Shown here: positions 24,797 through 40,695 of the stretch, in pieces
Numbering within the stretch: the stretch's first letter is position 1
Layout of the letters: every line of letters starts with the position of its first letter
Assembly (NCBI RefSeq): GCF_011927795.1
Contig: NZ_JAATJJ010000002.1
Span: 806,001 to 870,000, forward strand
Length of the DNA stretch: 64,000 bases
Direction: 5' to 3'
Origin: Saonia flava
GTDB taxonomy: Bacteria; Bacteroidota; Bacteroidia; Flavobacteriales; Flavobacteriaceae
Made by a program: the position numbers and the translations under genes
The notes under the pieces: generated by a model
Told to the model about the DNA's origin: nothing
The model's database searches: none
The model's input: only the letters and a program-made list of their open reading frames with translations

Positions 24797-25273
24797 TTAA
24801 AATCTAAAGTGAGAGAATGCTTTATTTGCTTCGGCCATTTTGTGGGTATCCACTCTTTTCTTAACTGCAGCGCCTTCTTCTTTGGAAGCAGCCAATATTT
24901 CTGAAGCTAATTTTTGCGCCATAGACTTTTCATTTCTCTTTCTTGAAAAACTGATAAGCCATTTCATAGCAGTAGATATTTTTCTATCTGGTCTAATCTG
25001 CATTGGAATTTGAAATGTAGCTCCACCCACTCTTCTACTTCTTACTTCCACATGGGGCATTACATTCGACAATGCATCTTTCCATATTTCCAAAGCTGTT
25101 TTCTCGTCATCGGTCTTTTTCTCCTCAACAATATCTATTGCATCGTAGAATACTTTAAAAGCGATCGATTTCTTTCCATCCCACATCATCATGTTCACAA
25201 AACGAGTTACCAGCTGATCATTAAATCTTGGATCTGGTAAAAGCGGTCTTTTTTTCGCTTGTTTTTTTCTCAT
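24797..25273 (-). CDS. rpsG: 30S ribosomal protein S7
   Basis: A 158-residue 16S rRNA-binding head protein. [19 protein letters not shown] and the C-terminal [20 protein letters not shown] (partial) match the family. In E. coli S7 regulates the str operon. Confidence 0.98.
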
Positions 25274-25295
25274 GTCTTCTCTTTAAAAGTTTTAA

Positions 25296-25670
25296 TTACT
25301 TTTTAGGTCGTTTTGCTCCGTACTTAGATCTTCGCTGAGTTCTGCCTGCAACACCTGCTGTGTCCAAAGCCCCTCTAACAATATGATATCGCACTCCTGG
25401 CAAATCTTTTACCCTTCCGCCTCTTACTAATACTATCGAGTGCTCTTGCAAATTGTGTCCTTCACCAGGTATGTAAGCGTTCACTTCTTTTCCATTAGTT
25501 AACCTAACCCTTGCAACTTTACGCATTGCTGAGTTTGGTTTCTTTGGAGTAGTTGTGTAAACACGCGTACAAACACCTCTTCTTTGAGGACACGAATCCA
25601 AAGCAGCCGATTTACTCTTCTTAGTAATTGTGGCCCTTCCTTTTCGTACTAATTGTGAAATTGTTGGCAT
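25296..25670 (-). CDS. rpsL: 30S ribosomal protein S12
   Basis: A 124-residue decoding-centre protein and first gene of the cluster. The streptomycin-related lysines are wild type: one in [13 protein letters not shown], one in [14 protein letters not shown] consensus promoter lies 43 bp upstream of the ATG. Confidence 0.98.
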
Positions 25671-25712
25671 ACTATATATAAATGTATAAACTTACCCTCT
25701 TTTAAGGGCTGG

Positions 25713-25743
25713 CAAATGTAGTAATAATTCACAGTATTTCAAA
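25713..25743 (-). promoter_or_regulatory. Promoter of the rpsL-led ribosomal cluster
   Basis: On the minus strand TTTG (25743-25740), a 19-bp spacer and TACATTTG (25720-25713) match the Bacteroidetes housekeeping promoter TTTG-N19-TAnnTTTG exactly. The expected transcript start is about 35 bp before the rpsL ATG. Confidence 0.8.
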
Positions 25744-26046
25744 CACTAGGGGATTAATTTTTTACTTTTTTTTTAAGAATGGGAATACGACCCTGTTGAA
25801 CATCAATTATTTTGCAAGATTCCCATAATTGCACAATGCCCAAAGTTTGGATTATCTTTACCTATATACAACTTAATATTATGTTTCAATTTAAAATTTT
25901 CCCCCAATTTTAAAATGTTAAAAAACATCTAAAATTTGAGGATTCTTTAATATAAATATGGAAAACTGCGCATATTCGATTTTTTAACAAAGGCTAATGG
26001 GAAAGTTATATTATTTTACATACTCTTAAAGTTTTATTAAAATTCG

Positions 26047-26078
26047 TTTGGAATATTAAGGTGAAATTATCACTTTTG
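26047..26078 (+). promoter_or_regulatory. Promoter of the susCD locus
   Basis: TTTG (26047-26050), a 20-bp spacer and CACTTTTG (26071-26078) match the Bacteroidetes consensus with one mismatch in the -7 element. The ATG of susC is 28 bp beyond, so the leader would be only about 20 bases. Confidence 0.6.
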
Positions 26079-26106
26079 CCGATAGCTAATTCAAATAATT
26101 TAAAAA

Positions 26107-29100
26107 ATGAGAACAAAATCAAATGGAATCTTAACGCTGTTATTGGCGTTTATTGTGCATTTGTCTTTTGCACAAGAAAAAACGATTTCAGGTAACGTTA
26201 CAGACCAAGACGGTCTTCCCTTGCCTGGAGTTAACATCGTTGTAGAGGGTACTACTACAGGTACTCAAACCGATTTTGACGGAAACTACGCCATAAGTGC
26301 TAGTGAAGGTCAAACCCTACTTTTTTCTTACATAGGACAAAAAGACATTAGAAGTGTAGTTGGGGCTAGTAGCACCATGAATGTCCAAATGGAAGAAGAT
26401 GCCCAGGCTTTGGAAGAGGTTATTGTAACCGCCCAAGGTATTAAGCGTGAAAAGAAAGCCTTAGGGTATGCAGTATCTTCTGTTGGTGAAGAAGACCTGG
26501 AACAAAGAGCTGAAGGTGATATCGCCAGAGTCTTGTCCGGTAAAGCGTCTGGTGTAAATATTACTTCCGCAGGTGGTATGTCTGGTTCTGGTACCAATGT
26601 GGTAATCAGGGGTCTAAGTTCATTTAGTGGCAGTAACCAAGCTTTGTTTGTCGTAGATGGTGTGCCTTTTAGTAGTGATACCAATGCAGAATCCCAGAGT
26701 GGAAATGCTTCCAGCTTCTTGGATGGAAATACTGGTTCTTCACGTTTCTTGGATTTAGATCCAAACAATATTGCCAATGTAGAGGTGCTTAAAGGTTTGG
26801 CAGCTGCTACCTTATATGGTACGCAAGGTAAAAATGGTGTTATTTTAATCACTACGAAAGCTGCAGCAGGTACTGGTGGAGCTAAAAAGAGTGAAATTAC
26901 CGTTAACCAATCATACTTTGTCAATGCTTTTGCATCAATGCCAGACTACCAAAATCAATATGGTAACGGTTTTGACCAATCATTTGGTTGGTTCTTTAGT
27001 AACTGGGGTCCCAGTTTTGATCGTGGTGGAGTTTCTGGATGGGGCAATCAAGCTGCCATTGATGACCAAGGAACTTTGGAACACCCATATTCCACAACTG
27101 CCGTGGCAGCAACACGAGATGCTTTTCCTGAATTGCAAGGTGCCAGATATGATTGGAAGCCATACAATTCAGTTGGAGACTTTTTTAGACCAGCAGGTAT
27201 CAGCAATACATCCGTAAACATCAATGGAGGTACTGCCGATGGAAATACTTCTTACAATGTAAACTTTGGTTACTTGGATGAGGATAGTTTTGTTCCGGGC
27301 AACTCATTAAACAGAGCCACTGTTTCTGTTGGTGGTCGTTCTCGACTATCTAATAAGTTTACAGTTGCCGCAACTATGAACTATGCGAGAACCGATTACA
27401 GAACACCACCTATTGCAGCAAGTAGAGGTAACGGAACCTTAGGGCTTTCTCTTTTTGCAAACGTATTCTTTACGCCTCGTAGTGTTGATTTAATGGGACT
27501 TCCTTTTGAAAATCCTATCGATAAGTCCAGTGTATATTATAGAAATGGAAATGACATTATCAACCCTAGATGGATTGAAAAAAATGTTAAAAATTCGCAG
27601 TTGACCAACAGGTTCTTTTGGAATGCATCCATGACATATGAATTAAACGACAACATAGACCTTACCTACCGTGCAGGTATGGACTTTTATAATGAAAGAA
27701 ACGTTCAGTATTCCAATAAAGGTGGTGTAAACTTTAATGCCGCAATTTTTGGTTTCTTGAATACTTATGATAATACCAATACAATATGGGATCATTATTT
27801 AGCCTTGAATGGTAATTATGACCTATCAGAAAAATTGGGAATGTCCTTTAATGTTGGTGCTACAACAAGGTCAACAACTTTTGACCAACAAGGTGTGGCA
27901 AGTACAGGACAAATAGTTTATGGTGTTGCAAGACACTTTAACTATTCCAATCAATCACCTATTCAATATACGGAGAGAAGAAATATTGCAGGTGTATTGG
28001 GTCAAGCAACCTTTGATTATGACAACATGTTGTTTTTAACAGCATCAACAAGAACTGACTGGGTATCTAACCTTATTACAGAGAATAACAGTAAGACCTA
28101 TCCAAGTGCTAGTTTGTCATTTTTGCCAACTACCGCTTTCCGTGGATTGCAATCACAGAATGGACTTAATTTCTTAAAATTGAGAGCAGGTGTAGGACAA
28201 TCAGCTACATTCCCATCGGCATACCCAACTGTTAGTATTGTTGAACAAAGCACGCAGGTGAACGGAGAAGGTGGTGAGGTTACAACGAACCAAGTTGCTG
28301 GATTTAAAGCAAATCCAAACTTAAAGCCAGAATTGTTATCAGAATTTGAAGTTGGGTTTGAATCTAGGTTCTTGGACAATAGAGTTTCTCTTGACTTTAC
28401 CTATTTTGACCGTACAACCAAGGATTTGATTGTTCGTGAACCCCTTTCACCATCCACAGGTTTTACATTTACGCAAAGTAATGTAGGTAAAATTGAAGGA
28501 GATGGTATTGAAGTTGATGCAGCTATTGATTGGTTTAGAAGCAATGAATCGGATGGCTTTAATTGGAACACTAGGGTTAATTTCTCTACATACAATCCTG
28601 TTGTGACTGAGCAAGAGCAAGATATCATTATCTATGCAGGAAGTACAGCACTTTTTGTTGGTGGTAACGCTGCAATAGAAGGCAAGCCACTAGGTTCAAT
28701 TGTAGGTACTGCGTTCCAAAGAGATGAAGCAGGCAATCTATTAATAAATGATGCTGGTAACTATATAAGTACTGAGCAAGATATAGATGGAAATGTACCA
28801 GTTATTGGTGATCCAAATCCTGACTATACGATGAACTTAATTAATAGCATTTCATATAAAAACTGGAATTTAGGCTTTCAATTCAACCACATAAAAGGAG
28901 GGGATATTATGTCTAGTACAATTGCTACACTTCTAGGAAGAGGTTTGATCGTAGAAACTCAGGATAGGGAAAATACTTTTATCCTTCCAGGTGTTAGACA
29001 AAGTACTGGTGAGCCTAATAACATTCAGTTGAACAACTCTACGTACTTCTTCAGCAACTTATTGTTTGGTCCTGCTGAGGCAAAAATATATGATGCATCC

Positions 29101-31070: not shown

Positions 31071-32042
31071 ATGATGAAAAGTATTAATAATAAACTTATT
31101 CTAACAATGCTTGCCTTTGTTACCATGCTATTTAATGCATGTGATGAGGGGGATGCAGTAGTAGATGATGTGGTTGCCAATACAACAAGAGGAGCCATAT
31201 TGAGGACGGTAAACTTAATTTCCAATGAATTACCTATTGGAGTTGCAGATGCCGAATTTTCAGTTGAGCTTGAGGTTCAAGATGAAGAAAACGGTGCATT
31301 AGTTGACAATATCGAAGTTTACTTAGGGTTCAGGGATAATTCAGATGATGGAGGTCCTGATTTGGATAAAGATGAAATACTGGCAACAACATTGCCTAGT
31401 TCAAGTTTTACCATTGGTGAATTTGATCTACCAAGAACATCTTATTCAATACCGTTGACCGATATGCTGTCCTCTTTGGGATTAAGTGATACCGATATCG
31501 ATGGTGGAGATCAATTTACCGTAAGATTTGAATTGGTACTGACTGATGGTAGAAGGTTTTCTTTTGCTGACAATTCTGGTACCTTAACAGGTTCTTTCTT
31601 CAGCTCACCATTTTTATACACTCCAACAGTGGTTTGTTTGGTTCCTGAAGATAAATTTGTTGGGACCTACATCTTAAGCAATGTTACCGGTGGACCCTTT
31701 GGAACCACTTGGGGCCAAGGTACAGAAGTTACTTTGTCTGTTGGTGAAGTAAGTACACAGAGAGTTTTCTCTGCCACTTATTTACCACAATTTGCAATTG
31801 GAAATGGCCCTGCTGAGTTCGTAATGGATTTAGTTTGTGGTGAAATCATTATACCAACAGGGCAAAGTAGTGGATTACAGTGTGTTGCTGGCATTAGCTT
31901 TGGACCTCCAAAAGGTGAGCCCAATGGCACATATGATGTAGCTATCACTGATGATAGTGTTTTAACATTTGCTTTCTTTGAAGATGAAGCCGATGATTGT
32001 GGAGGCGGTGCAAATGTTATTGCCGAATTAGTTAAACAATAA
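31071..32042 (+). CDS. Unknown lipoprotein, paralogue 1 (shared N domain, unique C domain)
   Basis: A 323-residue predicted lipoprotein (lipobox MLFNAC, then an acidic DEGD stretch that resembles the export signal for surface-exposed Bacteroidetes lipoproteins). Residues of about 24-190 form a domain shared with the next gene: TTRGAILRTVN, SNELPIG, FTIGEFDLPR, DGRRFSFADNSGTLTGSFFSSPF. The C-terminal part (about 190-323), beginning FVGTYILSNVTGG, is different from the neighbour and resembles small beta-rich domains common in Bacteroidetes lipoproteins. It lies 9 bp after the SusD-like gene, so it probably belongs to the same transport complex. No enzymatic motif is seen; function unknown. Confidence 0.8.
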   Translation: MMKSINNKLILTMLAFVTMLFNACDEGDAVVDDVVANTTRGAILRTVNLISNELPIGVADAEFSVELEVQDEENGALVDNIEVYLGFRDNSDDGGPDLDKDEILATTLPSSSFTIGEFDLPRTSYSIPLTDMLSSLGLSDTDIDGGDQFTVRFELVLTDGRRFSFADNSGTLTGSFFSSPFLYTPTVVCLVPEDKFVGTYILSNVTGGPFGTTWGQGTEVTLSVGEVSTQRVFSATYLPQFAIGNGPAEFVMDLVCGEIIIPTGQSSGLQCVAGISFGPPKGEPNGTYDVAITDDSVLTFAFFEDEADDCGGGANVIAELVKQ

Positions 32043-32053
32043 GAAGGTTATTA

Positions 32054-32080
32054 TAAACCACCCGTTAAACGGGTGGTTTA
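32054..32080 (+). other. Perfect 12-bp hairpin between the two lipoprotein paralogues
   Basis: TAAACCACCCGT and ACGGGTGGTTTA pair perfectly around a 3-base loop, 12 bp after the first lipoprotein stop. It lacks a strong T run (TAAATACATTTC follows), so it may be an mRNA-stabilising or partial-terminator element that sets lower expression of the second paralogue. Confidence 0.6.
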
Positions 32081-32138
32081 AATACATTTCATTGAACTTT
32101 AATGCAGTTTAACATTACAATAACTTCTTATATAAAAT

Positions 32139-33044
32139 ATGATTAACATGAAATTAAATTTTAAATCTTATTTAATTATTCCTGTAATGCTTTTGTTAGC
32201 TTCAACTAGCTGTGATGAAGGTGATGCAATTGTGGACGATGTTGTGGACAATACAACAAGAGGTGCTATTTTAAGAACAGTAAATGTTGTTTCCAATGAA
32301 TTGCCTATTGGGGAGGCAGATGGATTTTTTGGAGTTGACTTAGAGGTACAAGATTCTGAAAATGGAGCGCTGGTTCAATCTATTGATGTATTCGCCAATT
32401 TTCAAGATAACACGCCGGACAATGGTGTTGGCGCAACCACTCCTGAATCTTTTGTTGAGAATATTGCCAGTTCAACATTTACTATTGGCGAATTTGATTT
32501 ACCTAGATTCACCTATCAAATAACCTTACCAGAACTTTTGGCTATCACCGGTGTTTCTGAAAGTGATATTGATGGTGGTGATGAGTTTCGAGTTCGTTTC
32601 GAATTAGTTCTTTCTGATGGTAGAAGATTTTCTTTTGCTGATAATTCTGGTACTTTAACGGGTTCTTTCTTTAGTTCTCCTTTCTTGTACGGGGCGACTA
32701 TTGTTTGCCCTCCTTCTCCTCCAGCAGCTGGTGATTGGATTTTTGACATGACTGATGCCTATGGCGATGGATGGAATGGAGCTTCATTGACGGTAACCTT
32801 GGATGGTGAGGAAATGGAATTCCTCGTAGATGGATCAGAAGGTGGTGCTTCTTTAGAAACGCTTACAGTACCGACTGATGCTGAGGTAATCTCTATTAGA
32901 TTTACTTCTGGTAATTGGGATGGGGAAATAGGCTATACTATTACTTCTGCCAATGGCAATGTAATACTTACACAAGAGGCCTATGCGGATACTACTCCCA
33001 CTCCTGGGGTGGAACTCATAAATTATTGCGTAAAGAACTATTAA
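32139..33044 (+). CDS. Unknown lipoprotein, paralogue 2 (shared N domain, DxYGDGWN C domain)
   Basis: A 301-residue predicted lipoprotein (lipobox ASTSC followed by DEGD). A start three codons later (MKLNF) is equally good. The N-terminal domain to about residue 190 is clearly homologous to the preceding gene (TTRGAILRTVN, SNELPIG, FTIGEFDLPR, DGRRFSFADNSGTLTGSFFSSPF). The C-terminal domain is different: DWIFDMTDAYGDGWNGASL, then a beta-sandwich-like stretch ending near ILTQEAY. The DAYGDGWN motif recurs in secreted Bacteroidetes proteins and looks like an adhesion or binding module. It is followed by a strong terminator that ends the locus. Confidence 0.8.
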   Translation: MINMKLNFKSYLIIPVMLLLASTSCDEGDAIVDDVVDNTTRGAILRTVNVVSNELPIGEADGFFGVDLEVQDSENGALVQSIDVFANFQDNTPDNGVGATTPESFVENIASSTFTIGEFDLPRFTYQITLPELLAITGVSESDIDGGDEFRVRFELVLSDGRRFSFADNSGTLTGSFFSSPFLYGATIVCPPSPPAAGDWIFDMTDAYGDGWNGASLTVTLDGEEMEFLVDGSEGGASLETLTVPTDAEVISIRFTSGNWDGEIGYTITSANGNVILTQEAYADTTPTPGVELINYCVKNY

Positions 33045-33061: not shown

Positions 33062-33096
33062 AAAAAAAGGGCCCAATTTAAATTTGGGCCTTTTTT
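33062..33096 (+). terminator. Terminator of the susCD-lipoprotein locus
   Basis: GGCCCAA and TTGGGCC form a stem with a T/A-rich loop, preceded by an A run and followed by six T. It lies 18 bp after the last lipoprotein gene. Confidence 0.85.
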
Positions 33097-34736: not shown

Positions 34737-34821
34737 TCCTAATATTTGATTTCAAAATACTTAAAGAACATTTTCAAACCTATATATGAAATCAGAAGTT
34801 GCCTTCTACATAATTAATTCA

Positions 34822-37800
34822 ATGAAAAAAAATATTTTTTTTCCATTAATAATTGCTTCTCTTACTTTTTCATGTATTAATAAAAATAAGCCTGATGACA
34901 AAAGTGCAGCTCAGCAAGACAATACCCTTCTATCATCATCTTCAAAAGTATTTGAAAAAGTAGGAATTGATAAGAGTAATCTGATTTTCTCAAATACTAT
35001 CACAGAGAATGTGGAAACGCTGGATAATTTATTCAACTTTGATTATTTCTATAATGGTGCTGGCGTAGGTGTAGAGGATATTAACAATGATGGGTTACTG
35101 GATATATTTTTTTGTGGAAACCAGGTCAACAACAAACTATATATAAATAAGGGAGATTTTGTATTTGAAGATATAAGCGAAACTGCCAATATCAATGATG
35201 GTAAAAACTGGTCCAATGGTATAACATTTGTAGATATTAACAATGATGGCTGGAAAGATATTTATATCTCACAAGGAGGTCCAAATCAAAGATTAAATAG
35301 AAAAAATCTACTTTTCATCAATAACAAAAATGGAACTTTTAGTGAAAAAGCAGAATCCTACGGTTTAGCAGATATGGGCATAAGTACACAATCTGCATTT
35401 TTTGATTATGACAATGATGGAGATTTGGATTGTATAGTTATGAACGAAAATGAATTATATGGTGTAGACCCTATTAGTCTTTACAAATTGGTTGAAGGCA
35501 ATCAGGAAACCATGCATTTTAACAGTTCTCACCTATATCGTAATGAAAATGGCATATTTAAAAATGTAACAAAACAAGCAGGTATAGAGCGGCCCATTTT
35601 TGGCCTTGGATTATCAATAACTGATATTAATGAAGATGGATTATTGGATTTTTATATTGCCAGTGACTATTATATTCCAGATGCCCTATTTATTAACAAT
35701 GGAAATGGAACCTTTTCAGACCAAATTAAAACGTTCACCAATCAAATATCATATTATGGCATGGGCCTGGATGTAGCTGATATAAACAATGATAACAAAC
35801 AAGATATTTTTGTTTTGGATATGGCCGCCAATGATCATGTTAGGTCCAAAACATTAATGGCCTCCATGAGCACATCAAGATTTGATTATTTGGTAAACAA
35901 AGCAAATTTTCACTATCAGTACATGTACAACTCGTTACAATTAAATATTGGTAACAATAAATTCAATAATGTTGCCCAATTAACAGAAACTGCAAATACC
36001 GATTGGAGTTGGTCCGTATTGATGTCTGACTATGATTTAGATGAAGATAAAGACATTTATATTACCAATGGCTATAGAAAATATGCATTGGATAATGATT
36101 TACAGAACAAAGTATTTGATGCCAAAACAAGCTATGGGGGCAACATTCCTTTAGAAGTAAAAAAACAGCTTTATGCAGAAATGCCATCGGAAAAGTTACC
36201 AAATATACTTTATGAAAATAAAAAAGGATTAGAATTTTCTAACACTGCATCTAATTGGGGCTTGGATGACTTTTCCTTTAGTAATGGTGCTGCGCAAGGG
36301 GATTTTGACAATGATGGTGATTTGGACTTAGTAGTCAACAACATGGACGAAAATTCATTTCTCTACAAAAATCTATCCGTAGAAAATAATTTGGGCAATT
36401 ATTTAAAAGTAAAAGGAATTGGAAATCTTTCTGAGTCCTACCCCAAAATTAAAATATCCTACAACGGTAAATCCCAGTTCGTGGAATGTAGAAGAGTACG
36501 TGGTTATAGGTCTTCACAAGATGATATTGCCTACTTCGGACTAGGAGATGAGAAAAAAGTGGATACAATTGCTATTGAATGGCCAAGTGGTAAAATTGAA
36601 GAAAAATATAATGTCCCTGCAAATTCATTTTTGACTTTTGAAGAAAAAAATGCCACAGCCCAGAAAAGAAAATCCAAAATAACGAAGGCTCTATTTTCCA
36701 AAATAAATCCATCAAATTATAACATCAGTTATTCACATAAAGAAAATTTCTATGATGATTTTGAAAAAGAAATTCTTTTGCCATATAAACAATCCACAAT
36801 AGGACCTTTTATATCAAAAGGTGATATAAATGGCGATATGTTGGAAGATATATATATAGGTGGCGCATCTGGACAGGCAGGTGAATTATATGTTCAGACC
36901 TCCTACGGATTCAAAAAAATGATTTCTCCCATTTTGGAAAATGATAAAGGCCATGAAGATATGGAATCAAAATTCTTTGATTTTGACGGTGACAATGATT
37001 TAGATCTTTATGTGGTCAGCGGAGGTAACGAATTTGATGAAAATTCATCCTATTATACTGACAGATTATACATTAATAATGGACACGGGGAGTTTACCAA
37101 ACTAAAAAGCCAGGCATTAGAGGAAAATCCAAAAAGTGGAAAATCAATAGCCATTCTAGATTTTGATAAAGATGGTGATAATGATATACTAATTGGGAAT
37201 CGCATTGTTCCAAAGAATTACCCCAAACCAACTACATCTACTTTATATGAAAACACAAATGGCATATTAAAAGATGTAACACAAGAAAAGGCAAAAGGAC
37301 TATTAGATTTTGGAATAATAAACAGTATAATCACAACAGACTTTAACAATGATGGTTGGGACGACTTCATAGCAGTGGGAGAATGGACTACCATTGGTTT
37401 TTATGAAAACAAAAAAGGAAGTTTTACCAACATATCTAATGATATTCCAGAATTAAATGAAAAGGGATGGTGGTACACAATTCGTGAAACTGACATAAAC
37501 AATGATGGCTTAAAAGATTATTTGGTTGGAAATGTAGGTTTGAACTTAAAATTTAAGGCTAGTGCTGACAAACCCCTTAAAATTTATGCAAACGATTTTG
37601 ATAATAATGGCACACCGGATATTGTTTTAACTAAAAAATACCATGGAGAATATGTACCTGTTAGGGGAAGAGAATGTTCCTCTCAACAAATGCCATTTAT
37701 ACAAGAAAAATTCCCAACATACAATGATTTTGCAAATGCAACTTTGACCGATGTCTATGGCGAAAAACTTAGTCAGTCATATCAAAACGAGGTAACGGAA

Positions 37801-38178
37801 TTTAGATCAATAATGCTGATCAATAGAGGAAATGGCAATTTTGAAAAAAAAATACTACCTATAGAAGCACAATATTCACCCATTATGGATTTAGTATTTT
37901 ATGATCTAAATGATGATGGGTATCAAGATTGCATTATTGCTGGCAATATATATGACACAGAAGTGGAAACACCTCGCTTGGATGCAATTTCTGGATTGGT
38001 TCTTATATCCAATGGCAAGGATGGTTATTATCCCAAAATGCATCAAGAAAGTGGATTATATCTAGATGGGAACGTTAAAGACATTGAAGTGCTGAAAACA
38101 AAAAATGAAATTTTAGTATTGAATACGGCAAATAATGAAAAAATAGTGGTTCATAAATTCACAGGTCGTAATAATTGA
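34822..38178 (+). CDS. FG-GAP/VCBS-repeat lipoprotein with ASPIC/UnbV domain
   Basis: A 1118-residue predicted lipoprotein. I chose the ATG at 34822 because it gives a clean signal (MKKNIFFPLIIASLTFSC); an in-frame ATG 12 codons earlier has no signal at its start. The protein consists of FG-GAP/VCBS repeats with calcium-binding loops of the type DxNxDGxxD (VEDINNDGLLDIF, FDYDNDGDLDCIV, GDFDNDGDLDLVV, FDFDGDNDLDLYV). An ASPIC/UnbV domain lies about residues 520-620 (GYRSSQDDIAYFGLG, IEWPSGK), and a second propeller follows. Architecture matches the CRTAC1-like family, which often accompanies SusCD loci. The role is probably extracellular binding; no catalytic site is seen. Confidence 0.88.
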   Translation: MKKNIFFPLIIASLTFSCINKNKPDDKSAAQQDNTLLSSSSKVFEKVGIDKSNLIFSNTITENVETLDNLFNFDYFYNGAGVGVEDINNDGLLDIFFCGNQVNNKLYINKGDFVFEDISETANINDGKNWSNGITFVDINNDGWKDIYISQGGPNQRLNRKNLLFINNKNGTFSEKAESYGLADMGISTQSAFFDYDNDGDLDCIVMNENELYGVDPISLYKLVEGNQETMHFNSSHLYRNENGIFKNVTKQAGIERPIFGLGLSITDINEDGLLDFYIASDYYIPDALFINNGNGTFSDQIKTFTNQISYYGMGLDVADINNDNKQDIFVLDMAANDHVRSKTLMASMSTSRFDYLVNKANFHYQYMYNSLQLNIGNNKFNNVAQLTETANTDWSWSVLMSDYDLDEDKDIYITNGYRKYALDNDLQNKVFDAKTSYGGNIPLEVKKQLYAEMPSEKLPNILYENKKGLEFSNTASNWGLDDFSFSNGAAQGDFDNDGDLDLVVNNMDENSFLYKNLSVENNLGNYLKVKGIGNLSESYPKIKISYNGKSQFVECRRVRGYRSSQDDIAYFGLGDEKKVDTIAIEWPSGKIEEKYNVPANSFLTFEEKNATAQKRKSKITKALFSKINPSNYNISYSHKENFYDDFEKEILLPYKQSTIGPFISKGDINGDMLEDIYIGGASGQAGELYVQTSYGFKKMISPILENDKGHEDMESKFFDFDGDNDLDLYVVSGGNEFDENSSYYTDRLYINNGHGEFTKLKSQALEENPKSGKSIAILDFDKDGDNDILIGNRIVPKNYPKPTTSTLYENTNGILKDVTQEKAKGLLDFGIINSIITTDFNNDGWDDFIAVGEWTTIGFYENKKGSFTNISNDIPELNEKGWWYTIRETDINNDGLKDYLVGNVGLNLKFKASADKPLKIYANDFDNNGTPDIVLTKKYHGEYVPVRGRECSSQQMPFIQEKFPTYNDFANATLTDVYGEKLSQSYQNEVTEFRSIMLINRGNGNFEKKILPIEAQYSPIMDLVFYDLNDDGYQDCIIAGNIYDTEVETPRLDAISGLVLISNGKDGYYPKMHQESGLYLDGNVKDIEVLKTKNEILVLNTANNEKIVVHKFTGRNN

Positions 38179-38246: not shown

Positions 38247-38996
38247 ATGAAAAAAGTACTTTTATTTTTTACGCTAGGTTTATTTTTTAATTTTTCAATA
38301 GCTCAATATGCTGGTCAAGTTGCTAGCAATATGGCTGGTGCAGGAGCACAAACAGCCAGTGCAGGAGCTATTGCCACCTTAGATGGATCAATTAATGAAA
38401 TGGGTACAAGAAGAATGAACTCGAGTATAAAAGAGTTTCATGGATCTCCATATACTTCAAATGATTTTGCTCCAACCTCCATGTTTTATGGTGATGAATT
38501 CTTAGGCAAGGTATATTATCGGTACAATGCCTTTAATGAAGAAGTGGAAATCAAAAAAACCATTCTACCTGAAGAAAAAATTAAAAGTTTAGGAAGGGAC
38601 AAAGCTCTGAAAATTTTAGTTGATGGTAAAAAAATGGGATTCAAAACGTTTATAGATGTAAAAGGGCGGACACTTAACGGTTATCTTACCGAATTAGTCC
38701 AAGGAGAAACCTATGATTTATATAGAAGGATTAATGTAAAGTATACCGAAGGTCAAAAAGCCCAGAACTCTTTTATAAAAGCAATCCCAAATAGATTTTC
38801 ACATTTTACAGAATACTATTTTCAACAAAAGGGTGTTAACAGAATGGATGAAATATCATTAAAAAATGGAAAGCTTTTAAAATTGGTAAAGGAAGAGGAT
38901 AAGGAAAAGTTAAAAGTATTTTTAAAAGAAAATGATTTAAATATTAAGGATGAAAACGACTTGATAAAAGTTTTTGAGTTTTTGAACAAAGTGTAA
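38247..38996 (+). CDS. Unknown secreted protein, tandem paralogue 1
   Basis: A 249-residue exported protein: signal peptide ending FSIAQ, then YAGQVA and a small-residue segment (AGAGAQTASAGAIA). The rest is lysine-rich and conserved in the next gene: F.GSPYTSN.F.P, MFY.D...G.VYYRYNA.NEEVE, G.KMGFKTFID.KG.TLNGYL, YRRI.V.Y.EGQKAQNSF. The C terminus ends LIKVFEFLNKV. I do not recognise the family; in shape it resembles small periplasmic or surface beta proteins of Bacteroidetes. It has its own terminator. Confidence 0.8.
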   Translation: MKKVLLFFTLGLFFNFSIAQYAGQVASNMAGAGAQTASAGAIATLDGSINEMGTRRMNSSIKEFHGSPYTSNDFAPTSMFYGDEFLGKVYYRYNAFNEEVEIKKTILPEEKIKSLGRDKALKILVDGKKMGFKTFIDVKGRTLNGYLTELVQGETYDLYRRINVKYTEGQKAQNSFIKAIPNRFSHFTEYYFQQKGVNRMDEISLKNGKLLKLVKEEDKEKLKVFLKENDLNIKDENDLIKVFEFLNKV

Positions 38997-39049: not shown

Positions 39050-39137
39050 ATATAACTTTATGTCAATACATTACATTTTTATAAATAAAATTAACTGATG
39101 GTAAATGTATATGCTCTCAGTTTTAAATATAAACATT

Positions 39138-39890
39138 ATGAAAAAAATCCTATTATTTACAATTACCGCATTTTTGACAAATATATCTATGGCGCAGTAC
39201 GCTGGTCAAGTTGCAGTAGCCTCATCCAAAGGAGGTGGCGCAGGAGTCAGTCAAGCTTTTATAGATAAAGCTATAGGCAATATTGAAGGACATTATGCAA
39301 AACTATCTGATAAAGCCGTAGTTGATGATTTCCAAGGCTCCCCTTATACTTCAAATGAGTTTAAACCAGCCGTAATGTTTTATGAGAATGATAAAATTGG
39401 AGAAGTCTATTATAGATATAATGCTTATAATGAAGAAGTTGAAACAAAACAAACTACTATTCCAGGCGAAACCCTTAAAGGGCTAAGAAAAGACAAATCT
39501 ATAAGTATTCTTATAGATGGTTCAAAGATGGGGTTTAAGACTTTTATTGATCGTAAGGGAAAAACTCTCAACGGCTATCTTACCTCACTAGTGGAAAATG
39601 ACAAATACAACCTTTATCGCAGAATTAAGGTAACTTATAAAGAAGGTCAAAAAGCCCAAAATTCTTTTGTAAAAGCTGTACCAAATAAATTTACCCAGTT
39701 CACCGAATACTATTATCAGCCAAATGGTGCTAGTAGAATTGATGAAATAACCTTAAACAATGGAAAAATTATTAATCTTTTCAATGGTGATGAAAAAGTA
39801 AGGGTAAAGAACTTCATAAAAGAAAATAAATTGAACCTTAAGAAAGAGAAAGACTTAATAAAAGTTTTTGAATTTGTGAATAAGACTTAA
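39138..39890 (+). CDS. Unknown secreted protein, tandem paralogue 2
   Basis: A 250-residue exported protein from the ATG at 39138; the upstream in-frame ATG would put 11 residues before the signal peptide. The signal ends ISMAQ, followed by YAGQVA exactly as in the preceding paralogue. The lysine-rich body aligns throughout (GSPYTSNEF, VYYRYNAYNEEVE, KMGFKTFIDRKGKTLNGYL, EGQKAQNSF, FTEYYYQ). It is separated from paralogue 1 by a terminator, so each copy has its own transcript. Function unknown. Confidence 0.8.
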   Translation: MKKILLFTITAFLTNISMAQYAGQVAVASSKGGGAGVSQAFIDKAIGNIEGHYAKLSDKAVVDDFQGSPYTSNEFKPAVMFYENDKIGEVYYRYNAYNEEVETKQTTIPGETLKGLRKDKSISILIDGSKMGFKTFIDRKGKTLNGYLTSLVENDKYNLYRRIKVTYKEGQKAQNSFVKAVPNKFTQFTEYYYQPNGASRIDEITLNNGKIINLFNGDEKVRVKNFIKENKLNLKKEKDLIKVFEFVNKT

Positions 39891-39957: not shown

Positions 39958-40695
39958 ATGGAAAAGAAAAATCAGGTTTATGGCATAAGGGCAATCATTG
40001 AAGCCATAAATTCCGATGAAACAGTCGATAAAGTATTCCTACAAAAAGGATTGCAGGGAAGTCTTTCCAAAGAGCTGGAAACCCTCATTCGCAAAAAAGG
40101 AATCTCATCATCCTATGTACCCATTGAAAAACTCAATAGGCTTACCAAAAATAATCACCAAGGTGCCATTGCAAGTATCTCTCCCATTAAATTTCACACA
40201 ATTGAGGAATTAGTGGAACCAATCATCCAAGAGAAAGAGAATCCCCTTTTTCTTTTATTAGATCAATTATCCGATGTTCGAAATTTTGGAGCTATTATAA
40301 GAACTGCTGAATGTACAGGTGTAGACGGTATTATTATACCAAAAAAAGGAGCAGCTCCGGTAACGGCAGACACGATAAAAACTTCAGCAGGCGCTGCATT
40401 TAAAATACCTATTGCAAAAGTAGACCATATTAAAGATGCCGTTTTTTATATGCAAGCTTGTGGTGTAAAAGTAATAGGAGCAACTGAAAAAACAGAAGAC
40501 ACAATATATCAGGTTCCACTACTAGGTCCTATTGCTATTGTTATGGGGTCCGAAGATATAGGAATATCCCCTTCGGTTCTTAAAGCAGTGGATTATAAAG
40601 CCAAGTTGCCTTTATTGGGAGAAATAAGTTCTCTAAACGTATCTGTTGCCTGTGGGGTCTTTTTATATGAAGTGGTAAGACAAAGGCTTAGTTAA
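39958..40695 (+). CDS. rlmB: 23S rRNA (guanosine-2'-O-)-methyltransferase RlmB
   Basis: A 245-residue SpoU/TrmH-family enzyme. The N-terminal substrate-binding domain starts VYGIRAIIEAI. The C-terminal knotted SAM-binding domain shows LDQLSDVRNFGAIIRTAEC (motif 1), IAIVMGSEDIGIS (motif 2) and EISSLNVSVACGVFLYE (motif 3). It methylates 23S rRNA near the peptidyl transferase centre. It starts just after the terminator of the secreted pair and its TAA overlaps the opposing rhomboid stop codon. Confidence 0.94.
   Translation: MEKKNQVYGIRAIIEAINSDETVDKVFLQKGLQGSLSKELETLIRKKGISSSYVPIEKLNRLTKNNHQGAIASISPIKFHTIEELVEPIIQEKENPLFLLLDQLSDVRNFGAIIRTAECTGVDGIIIPKKGAAPVTADTIKTSAGAAFKIPIAKVDHIKDAVFYMQACGVKVIGATEKTEDTIYQVPLLGPIAIVMGSEDIGISPSVLKAVDYKAKLPLLGEISSLNVSVACGVFLYEVVRQRLS

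Follow-up and report, generated by a model that had tools for sequence, protein, structure and literature searches.

Two lipoproteins with a common, putatively SusC-docking domain and exchanged C-terminal heads behind a SusCD importer of Saonia flava

The window analysed here, a stretch of 64,000 nt from Saonia flava (contig NZ_JAATJJ010000002.1, positions 806,001 to 870,000), holds a SusCD locus in which the genes for the transporter and its SusD lid are followed by two lipoprotein genes, referred to as A and B (Table 1). The hairpin between A and B is absent from the list of terminator-like structures for the window, and might lead to different expression levels of the two proteins. A scan for sigma-70 promoters returned 34 promoter-like sites versus 25.7 expected and is uninformative here. 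Downstream of B are encoded an arylsulfotransferase-like protein (PF05935; 33372-34736) and then a large FG-GAP/ASPIC protein (34786-38178). They are followed by two similar neighboring proteins of 249 and 261 aa, apparently secreted (38247-38996 and 39105-39890), for which no convincing Pfam family was found. No carbohydrate enzyme was detected among the eight proteins of the window that were scanned.

Table 1. Features of the SusCD-lipoprotein locus (positions in the window)
Feature	Position	Strand	Remarks
SusC, TonB-dependent transporter, 1080 aa	26107..29349	+	TIGR04056 536 bits (cut-off 368), SusC trees; clade with N-domain lipoproteins
SusD lipoprotein lid, 561 aa	29376..31061	+	PF12771, E 3.5e-31
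Lipoprotein A, 323 aa	31071..32042	+	Lipobox Cys at 31140-31142
N domain of A	31188..31640	+	Predicted Ig/macroglobulin-like sandwich (AlphaFold2 model)
C domain of A, class A	31641..32039	+	Predicted small beta barrel
Hairpin between genes A and B, 12-bp stem	32054..32080	+	61 nt fold, -21.3 kcal/mol, z -4.6
Lipoprotein B, 301 aa	32139..33044	+	Lipobox Cys at 32211-32213
N domain of B	32259..32708	+	68% identical to N domain of A; model
C domain of B, class B, YGDGWNG type	32709..33041	+	Predicted all-beta, strands in model
Terminator-like hairpin 3' of B	33064..33096	+	In terminator-like list on - strand

A and B were originally predicted to share about 165 residues and to diverge completely thereafter, and the open reading frames agree with this description, including all the motifs that the prediction quoted. 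The two proteins align from the signal to around residue 185; of the 220 residues aligned in total, 126 are identical, and the identity of the N parts alone is 68% over 167 residues. Their C parts align with a score of 30, which is within the range of 200 shuffles (mean 31.6, maximum 59), so that in a pairwise comparison they show no similarity above chance. Synonymous divergence between the two genes is saturated (dS around 2), and the split of A and B is therefore old.

Both proteins start with a lipoprotein-like signal whose cysteine is followed by DEGDA.VDDVV. A cysteine near the start of the N domain is present in 136 of 136 family N copies (one truncated copy excluded), and the acidic residues that the original prediction placed right after it are seen in A and B and recur across these copies (D+E minus K+R in the ten residues after the cysteine: mean 3.2, range 0 to 5). 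Acidic residues in this place fit the surface-export signal described in PMC5080379, suggesting that A and B are exposed on the cell surface.

Neither protein belongs to a family represented in the databases searched. In Pfam and NCBIfam scans, no family was found for A, and B showed only a sub-threshold match to DUF1508 (E up to 1). PF16404 and PF16403, the profiles of SusE/SusF-type and BT_2262-like proteins, matched neither A nor B, and Pfam scans of ten more members, with E values up to 5 allowed, did not bring them up either. No credible match came from sequence searches of the PDB with the profiles of N, A, B and class C. In the literature covered, outside which most subscription papers lie, neither a description of the N-domain family nor a mention of the motif YGDGWNG or three variants of it was found.

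AlphaFold2 models were built from 14-row alignments, with a mean pLDDT of 80 for A and 77.5 for B. The best solved matches of the N domain of A are complement C3-type domains (VIA Z 9.3, 3.2-3.4 Å, 115-118 residues), and the N domain of B finds the same type of match (VIA Z up to 8.8). The N domain is thus predicted to be an Ig/macroglobulin-like sandwich, a fold that is common and says nothing on function. The C domain of A-type proteins matches the C-terminal domain of BT_2262 (5fq8_G 90-212; VIA Z 8.2, 3.3 Å, 111 residues), with designed barrels scoring 8.6-8.9. For the B-type C domain, VIA on the model of B gave no clean solved match, because the N domain filled the list. Foldseek searches with the whole models returned partial, low-TM matches only.

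The N domain occurs in the Flavobacteriaceae and beyond them. A single-sequence search (E up to 0.01) with the N part was positive for 115 of the 397 family genomes, and a profile made from 76 N domains found it (E up to 0.001) in 27 of 345 genomes across the phylum, nine of them from the same family, 12 from the same class and six from the same phylum only. The loci studied comprise 120 regions fetched among the matches listed, ten named loci and the window; the weakest matches and some others (e.g., G136, G358, G105, G233, and G179) lie outside the fetched set. Four regions duplicating named records (L045, L046, L048, and L055) were removed from the linkage, N-tree and anchor counts and are still included among the 138 C regions described below. 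The final set contains 127 loci with 137 N-domain ORFs, of which 134 are readable, the other three being located at contig edges; the contig-edge fragments L040, L094, and L151 were excluded from the trees.

In 124 of the 134 readable copies, SusD is encoded directly upstream or is reached via another N lipoprotein. Of these linked copies, 117 follow a complete SusC-SusD pair, with a median gap of 12 nt to the N lipoprotein, five have their SusD at a contig edge, and two have an interrupted upstream gene. In a wider draw of 20 loci, the N domain was re-detected in 19, all of them preceded by SusC-SusD (19/19) and 18 of them from outside the family. The co-occurrence with SusCD that the original prediction proposed to score was therefore found both inside the family and beyond it. 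The ten unlinked copies include one that shares its gene cluster with a linked copy (L071) and nine orphans in four genomes (G012, G118, G205, and G312), each of which also holds a linked copy. Among the neighbors of the orphans are found pnp, pgm or a PKD/CHU_C protein. The orphans (L065, L066, L067, L068, L103, L104, L105, L107, and L121) are N-domain lipoproteins with an A-type head away from SusCD, and one of them, L068, agrees with the linked copy L069 completely in its N domain and almost completely in its head.

The C parts of these proteins are diverse, so that the homologues neither lack a link to SusCD nor keep a constant C part, two outcomes that would have spoken against the original prediction. 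An all-against-all comparison of 138 C regions (E < 1e-5, 50% coverage) yielded four classes of heads, B with 90 members, A with 41, C with six, and D with one. Class B is characterized by the residues G8, D16, G19, D20, W22, E73, and C107, invariant in 39 rows. In addition, there is a headless form, consisting of N-only proteins of around 195 aa in the same gene position (L122, L136, L138, and L145). Three proteins of 442-455 aa (L085, L091, and L159) carry two tandem N-type domains before a B-type head. The heads of the wider draw are A-type, C-like, or in some cases outside these classes, with one short form. Ten loci hold two N-domain ORFs, arranged as A then B in six cases, two of which are in one genome. 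In four genomes searched for the heads, four of the five B-type occurrences lay behind N domains, the fifth being in a 1009-aa open frame of G190, and so did both occurrences of the A type.

On the tree of the 134 N domains, the head class requires 18 changes, where the least possible number is four and the mean of shuffled labels is 43.5. Well-supported branches alone demand at least six changes for B and at least five for A. The trees thus support a recurrent exchange of heads in this family. Without any exchange, the C parts of A and B could be one single domain that diverged past recognition after a duplication. At E < 1e-3, nine directed comparisons between A and B heads do match (phmmer; best 6.5e-6 at 42% coverage; via L140, L118, and a few others), which leaves room for a remote kinship of both. 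Nevertheless, this explanation is very improbable given the way in which the classes are intermixed on the N tree. Moreover, holding all A heads as one clade in a 40-row quick tree lowers the log-likelihood by 162, class C heads have no profile similarity to those of class A, and the N-only and two-N forms exist.

The transporters accompanied by the N domain belong to a single SusC clade. In a FastTree phylogeny of 57 of the 125 N-linked SusCs and six others, all 57, coming from six family codes, are placed on one side of a branch with a support of 100. Four of the six others fall outside this clade and two inside, namely L109, which has a split SusD followed by an N lipoprotein, and L214, whose genome contains only a weak N match (1.7e-7) that was not re-detected in the wider draw. 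A control FastTree combined 34 N-linked SusCs with 43 SusCs collected from five genomes regardless of the N domain, the latter taken from the 49 loci obtained for 97 matched places (47 of the places, and few of the loci, in G316). The clade, with a support of 99, contains the 34 and four of the 43 control SusCs, all four N-linked (those of the window, of a second locus in the same genome at C2:595-601 kb, and of G190 and G468), and the other 39 are outside. A profile search of the own genome (E up to 1) detected only three N domains, at these two loci, so that 13 of its 15 full-length SusCs are devoid of the N domain. Absence elsewhere was determined by a single-sequence search in G190 and by a profile search in G468 and G537. 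At the five SusCs of the sister clade, the genes after SusD encode phosphodiesterase/sulfatase-like, enolase-like, FG-GAP and NlpC/P60 proteins and one 444-aa ORF. The second own locus (L044, 2193-11447) carries a B-type head, and a GH16 gene starts there around 2.4 kb behind the lipoprotein, past two genes on the opposite strand.

The evolutionary coupling between these proteins was analyzed through the pairwise distances of N, C, SusC and SusD, using family loci only, excluding near-copies, and taking from each locus the lipoprotein that adjoins SusD. In class B (66 loci), N correlates with SusC (rho 0.76) and SusD (0.62), and C does so with 0.15 and 0.24, respectively. Since the correlation between N and C is only 0.18, the N half is coupled more to the gene located two positions upstream than to its own C half. 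The partial correlation of N with SusC given SusD is 0.57 (0 of 299 permutations as high), and that of N with SusD given SusC is -0.02; C follows SusD weakly given SusC (0.20; 0 of 299 permutations) and does not follow SusC given SusD (-0.08). In class A (24 loci), the partial of N with SusC given SusD is 0.47 (0/299) and that of N with SusD given SusC is -0.18. The C domain has here a correlation of 0.11 with SusC, and follows neither SusC nor SusD (partials 0.01 and 0.04). Partial Mantel tests are known to err towards significance. Earlier runs gave partials of N with SusD given SusC from -0.22 to 0.14.

The difference between rho(N,SusC) and rho(C,SusC) has a bootstrap range of 0.48 to 0.71 in class B and 0.33 to 0.72 in class A, and earlier runs with other alignments and subsets had the same direction and wider ranges. 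In the subsets defined by the control gene rlmB, this range is 0.04 to 0.48 for B and -0.06 to 0.59 for A (17 loci), and in those defined by S7 it is 0.46 to 0.84 and 0.02 to 0.71. When N is thinned to its fastest columns, becoming more divergent than C, its rho with SusC is still 0.38 to 0.61; in the rlmB subset of class B, however, thinned N reaches 0.38-0.49 versus 0.34 for C, and the gap is small. These results divide the docking proposed in the original prediction. Docking on SusC is favored by evolutionary evidence, namely the covariation and the single clade, and docking on SusD finds no signal once SusC is allowed for.

Coupling of this kind can also arise without contact. The N domain could be a mere spacer on a surface anchor that follows SusC through shared operon travel, with recombination readily replacing the last gene at its 3' end, so that docking would be unnecessary. 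The adjacency of the SusC, SusD and N lipoprotein genes is compatible with this, as are the orphan N copies and the little that N and SusC follow the species controls, which suggests that they move as a unit (rho of rlmB and S7 with N -0.06 to 0.08, with SusC -0.16 to 0.19). However, the SusD gene is nearer to N than that of SusC, and yet it is SusC that N follows after partialling. This preference is also seen at equal column numbers (150-540 random columns, 102 loci), where rho is 0.64-0.72 for N-SusC and 0.42-0.55 for N-SusD. Together with the single SusC clade that carries N in the genomes examined, this makes the spacer an unlikely explanation.

Among 40-residue stretches along SusC, the closest followers of N beyond the whole protein are found at 281-340 and 941-1000, as well as at 111-150 and 201-250, whereas those following SusD best lie within 681-800 and 521-570. 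The stretch 281-340 comes directly after the first barrel strand, as placed by hand from the sequence, and by position would be the first extracellular loop. The stretches 111-150 and 201-250 are in or near the plug, out of reach of an extracellular protein, and a signal there also speaks for the spacer. The loop signal for N is 0.20, and the best of 60 random column sets reaches 0.18. Because contacts are impossible in the plug stretches and random sets come this close, the mapping is only suggestive.

The plan of a dock with an outward head is already known in kind from the levan utilisome (PMC7618045). There, the N-terminal Ig-like domains of the surface lipoprotein SGBP are described on the lip of SusC, with a contact at loop 1, and levan binding resides in its C-terminal domain; the SGBP of the dextran utilisome is located at loop 9 of SusC (PMC7618045). 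As far as these proteins (Bt1761 / Bt3088) are described in that source, they share with A and B the lipid anchor, an N part that in A and B is predicted to be Ig-like, a differing C domain that in A and B would point outward, and a gene in a SusCD locus. They also differ in several respects: the levan SGBP has two Ig-like domains instead of one from a family of its own, its C domain consists of a beta sheet with helices and not of a small, exchanged head predicted to be all-beta, and its locus includes a glycan-cleaving enzyme, unlike the scanned part of the window. Another comparable system is BT2261-2264 (5fq7, 5fq8), whose SusCD complex contains the extra lipoproteins BT_2262 and BT_2261. 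The SusD of the window matches BT_2263 (5fq6_A, 1.2e-6), and the predicted fold of the A-type C domain is similar to that of the C-terminal domain in BT_2262, a similarity that designed barrels equal, whereas the sequences of A and B match neither the BT_2262 chains nor PF16404. The ligands in the BT2261-64 structure are oligopeptides (PMC7782687), and thus the ligand of an A/B-type system need not be a glycan.

A and B are proposed to be surface lipoproteins that join the neighboring SusCD importer as additional subunits, with the N domain as dock and the C domain as exchangeable head, a reading to which a probability of around 0.6 is assigned. As in the levan utilisome, the lipid-tethered, Ig-like N domain would probably dock on the rim that SusC exposes to the outside, away from the seat of SusD, with the first extracellular loop as the favored site. 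The C domain would point outward as a head by which a ligand is captured or handled for the transporter. With two lipoproteins that differ in their heads, one importer would have two tools, either both at a single SusC or distributed over the halves of a SusC dimer, and A and B may in this way be used simultaneously. Throughout the phylum, the N domain would keep to its SusC clade while heads are exchanged, lost or doubled. The proposal builds on the observed sequences, linkage, SusC clade and covariation, and on the head exchange derived from the trees. Against docking stand the ten of 134 copies that are not directly behind SusCD and the SusC of L214, which belongs to the clade without a re-detected N copy.

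The C domains may recognize ligands; the B type follows SusD weakly (partial 0.20) and the A type does not. Also compatible with docking on SusC, A and B could be third subunits required for the assembly or stability of the transporter, or could bind another surface partner, in which case the C domains would not be ligand receptors. The N-only forms in the same gene position agree with such a role, as does the A-type C domain, which follows neither SusC nor SusD. Furthermore, there is a precedent in the SusCDE complex of Flavobacterium johnsoniae, to which no function is as yet assigned (PMC12611786). Even so, this explanation seems doubtful, since the repeated exchange of heads fits a change of ligands better than it fits a constant role in assembly, and the weak coupling of the B-type head to SusD argues in the same direction.

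In F. johnsoniae, SusC, SusD and SusE (Fjoh_0403-0405) co-purify, and tagged SusE is surface exposed (PMC12611786), which resembles the combination of SusC, SusD and a third surface lipoprotein found here. Both systems perhaps occupy the same chromosomal slot. Fjoh_0402 has been described as a TamA homologue (PMC12045153), and the gene order from Fjoh_0402 to Fjoh_0405 would fit this slot. In the window, the SusCD locus lies between the genes for EF-G, S7 and S12 and an RlmB-like gene (24797-26107 and 39958-40695). This slot recurs in many relatives, in which the types of SusCD and third lipoprotein can differ, and a match to S12 and/or RlmB is present within the fetched stretch of 88 of the 127 loci. 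Upstream of SusC, an Omp85-like gene was found in the two relatives scanned, and ORFs of that length recur there; behind many N-domain loci recur ORFs of around 440-460 and 1100-1130 aa, close in size to the arylsulfotransferase-like and FG-GAP/ASPIC proteins of the window and compared mostly by length.

Orthology of A and B with F. johnsoniae SusE (Fjoh_0405) was considered and dropped. The uL3 protein of genome G316, taken here as a near relative, is 97% identical to chain C of 7jil. From S7/EF-G to rlmB, the slot of G316 encodes a 568-aa ORF whose sole match, to POTRA, stays below threshold, a SusC that is 32% identical to that of the window and outside the N-linked clade, a SusD, and BT_2262-like and BT_2261-like lipoproteins. 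A blastp search of A and B against this BT_2262-like protein gave nothing of note, and the N domain was not found in the G316 genome, a 2243-aa frame with a single doubtful match (E 0.054) being the exception. Because this slot holds a BT_2262-like protein in a genome with no credible N domain, Fjoh_0405 is probably not a member of the N-domain family, as judged from this relative and not from the sequence of Fjoh_0405. Within the genus code of G316 (g127, close to F. johnsoniae), only G602 has the N domain, in a lipoprotein that is seemingly in the same slot, judging by ORF lengths, and at least 13 genomes are negative. The SusCDE complex is therefore a precedent for a third subunit, but not an orthologue of A and B.

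The Bacteroidota possess many SusCD importers of unassigned substrate, and the reason why given lipoproteins belong to a given SusC is mostly unexplained. What appears to be new here is an N-domain family that lacks a model in the Pfam and NCBIfam copies used and that keeps, across the genomes examined, to one SusC clade, together with the recurrent exchange of heads that are uncoupled from their dock. More tentatively, and with somewhat less than even odds, the N domain may be an ancient adaptor of a single SusC clade, dedicated to it across at least two classes of the phylum. One importer backbone would thereby be re-tooled through the exchange of heads within the gene, through two different heads in tandem, through N-only caps, and perhaps through orphans acting in trans. 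If the proposal is correct, a docking domain that marks one SusC clade would offer a testable rule for assigning lipoproteins to transporters, and for the mapping of substrates the family would offer a naturally varied collection of heads carried by an unchanging dock.
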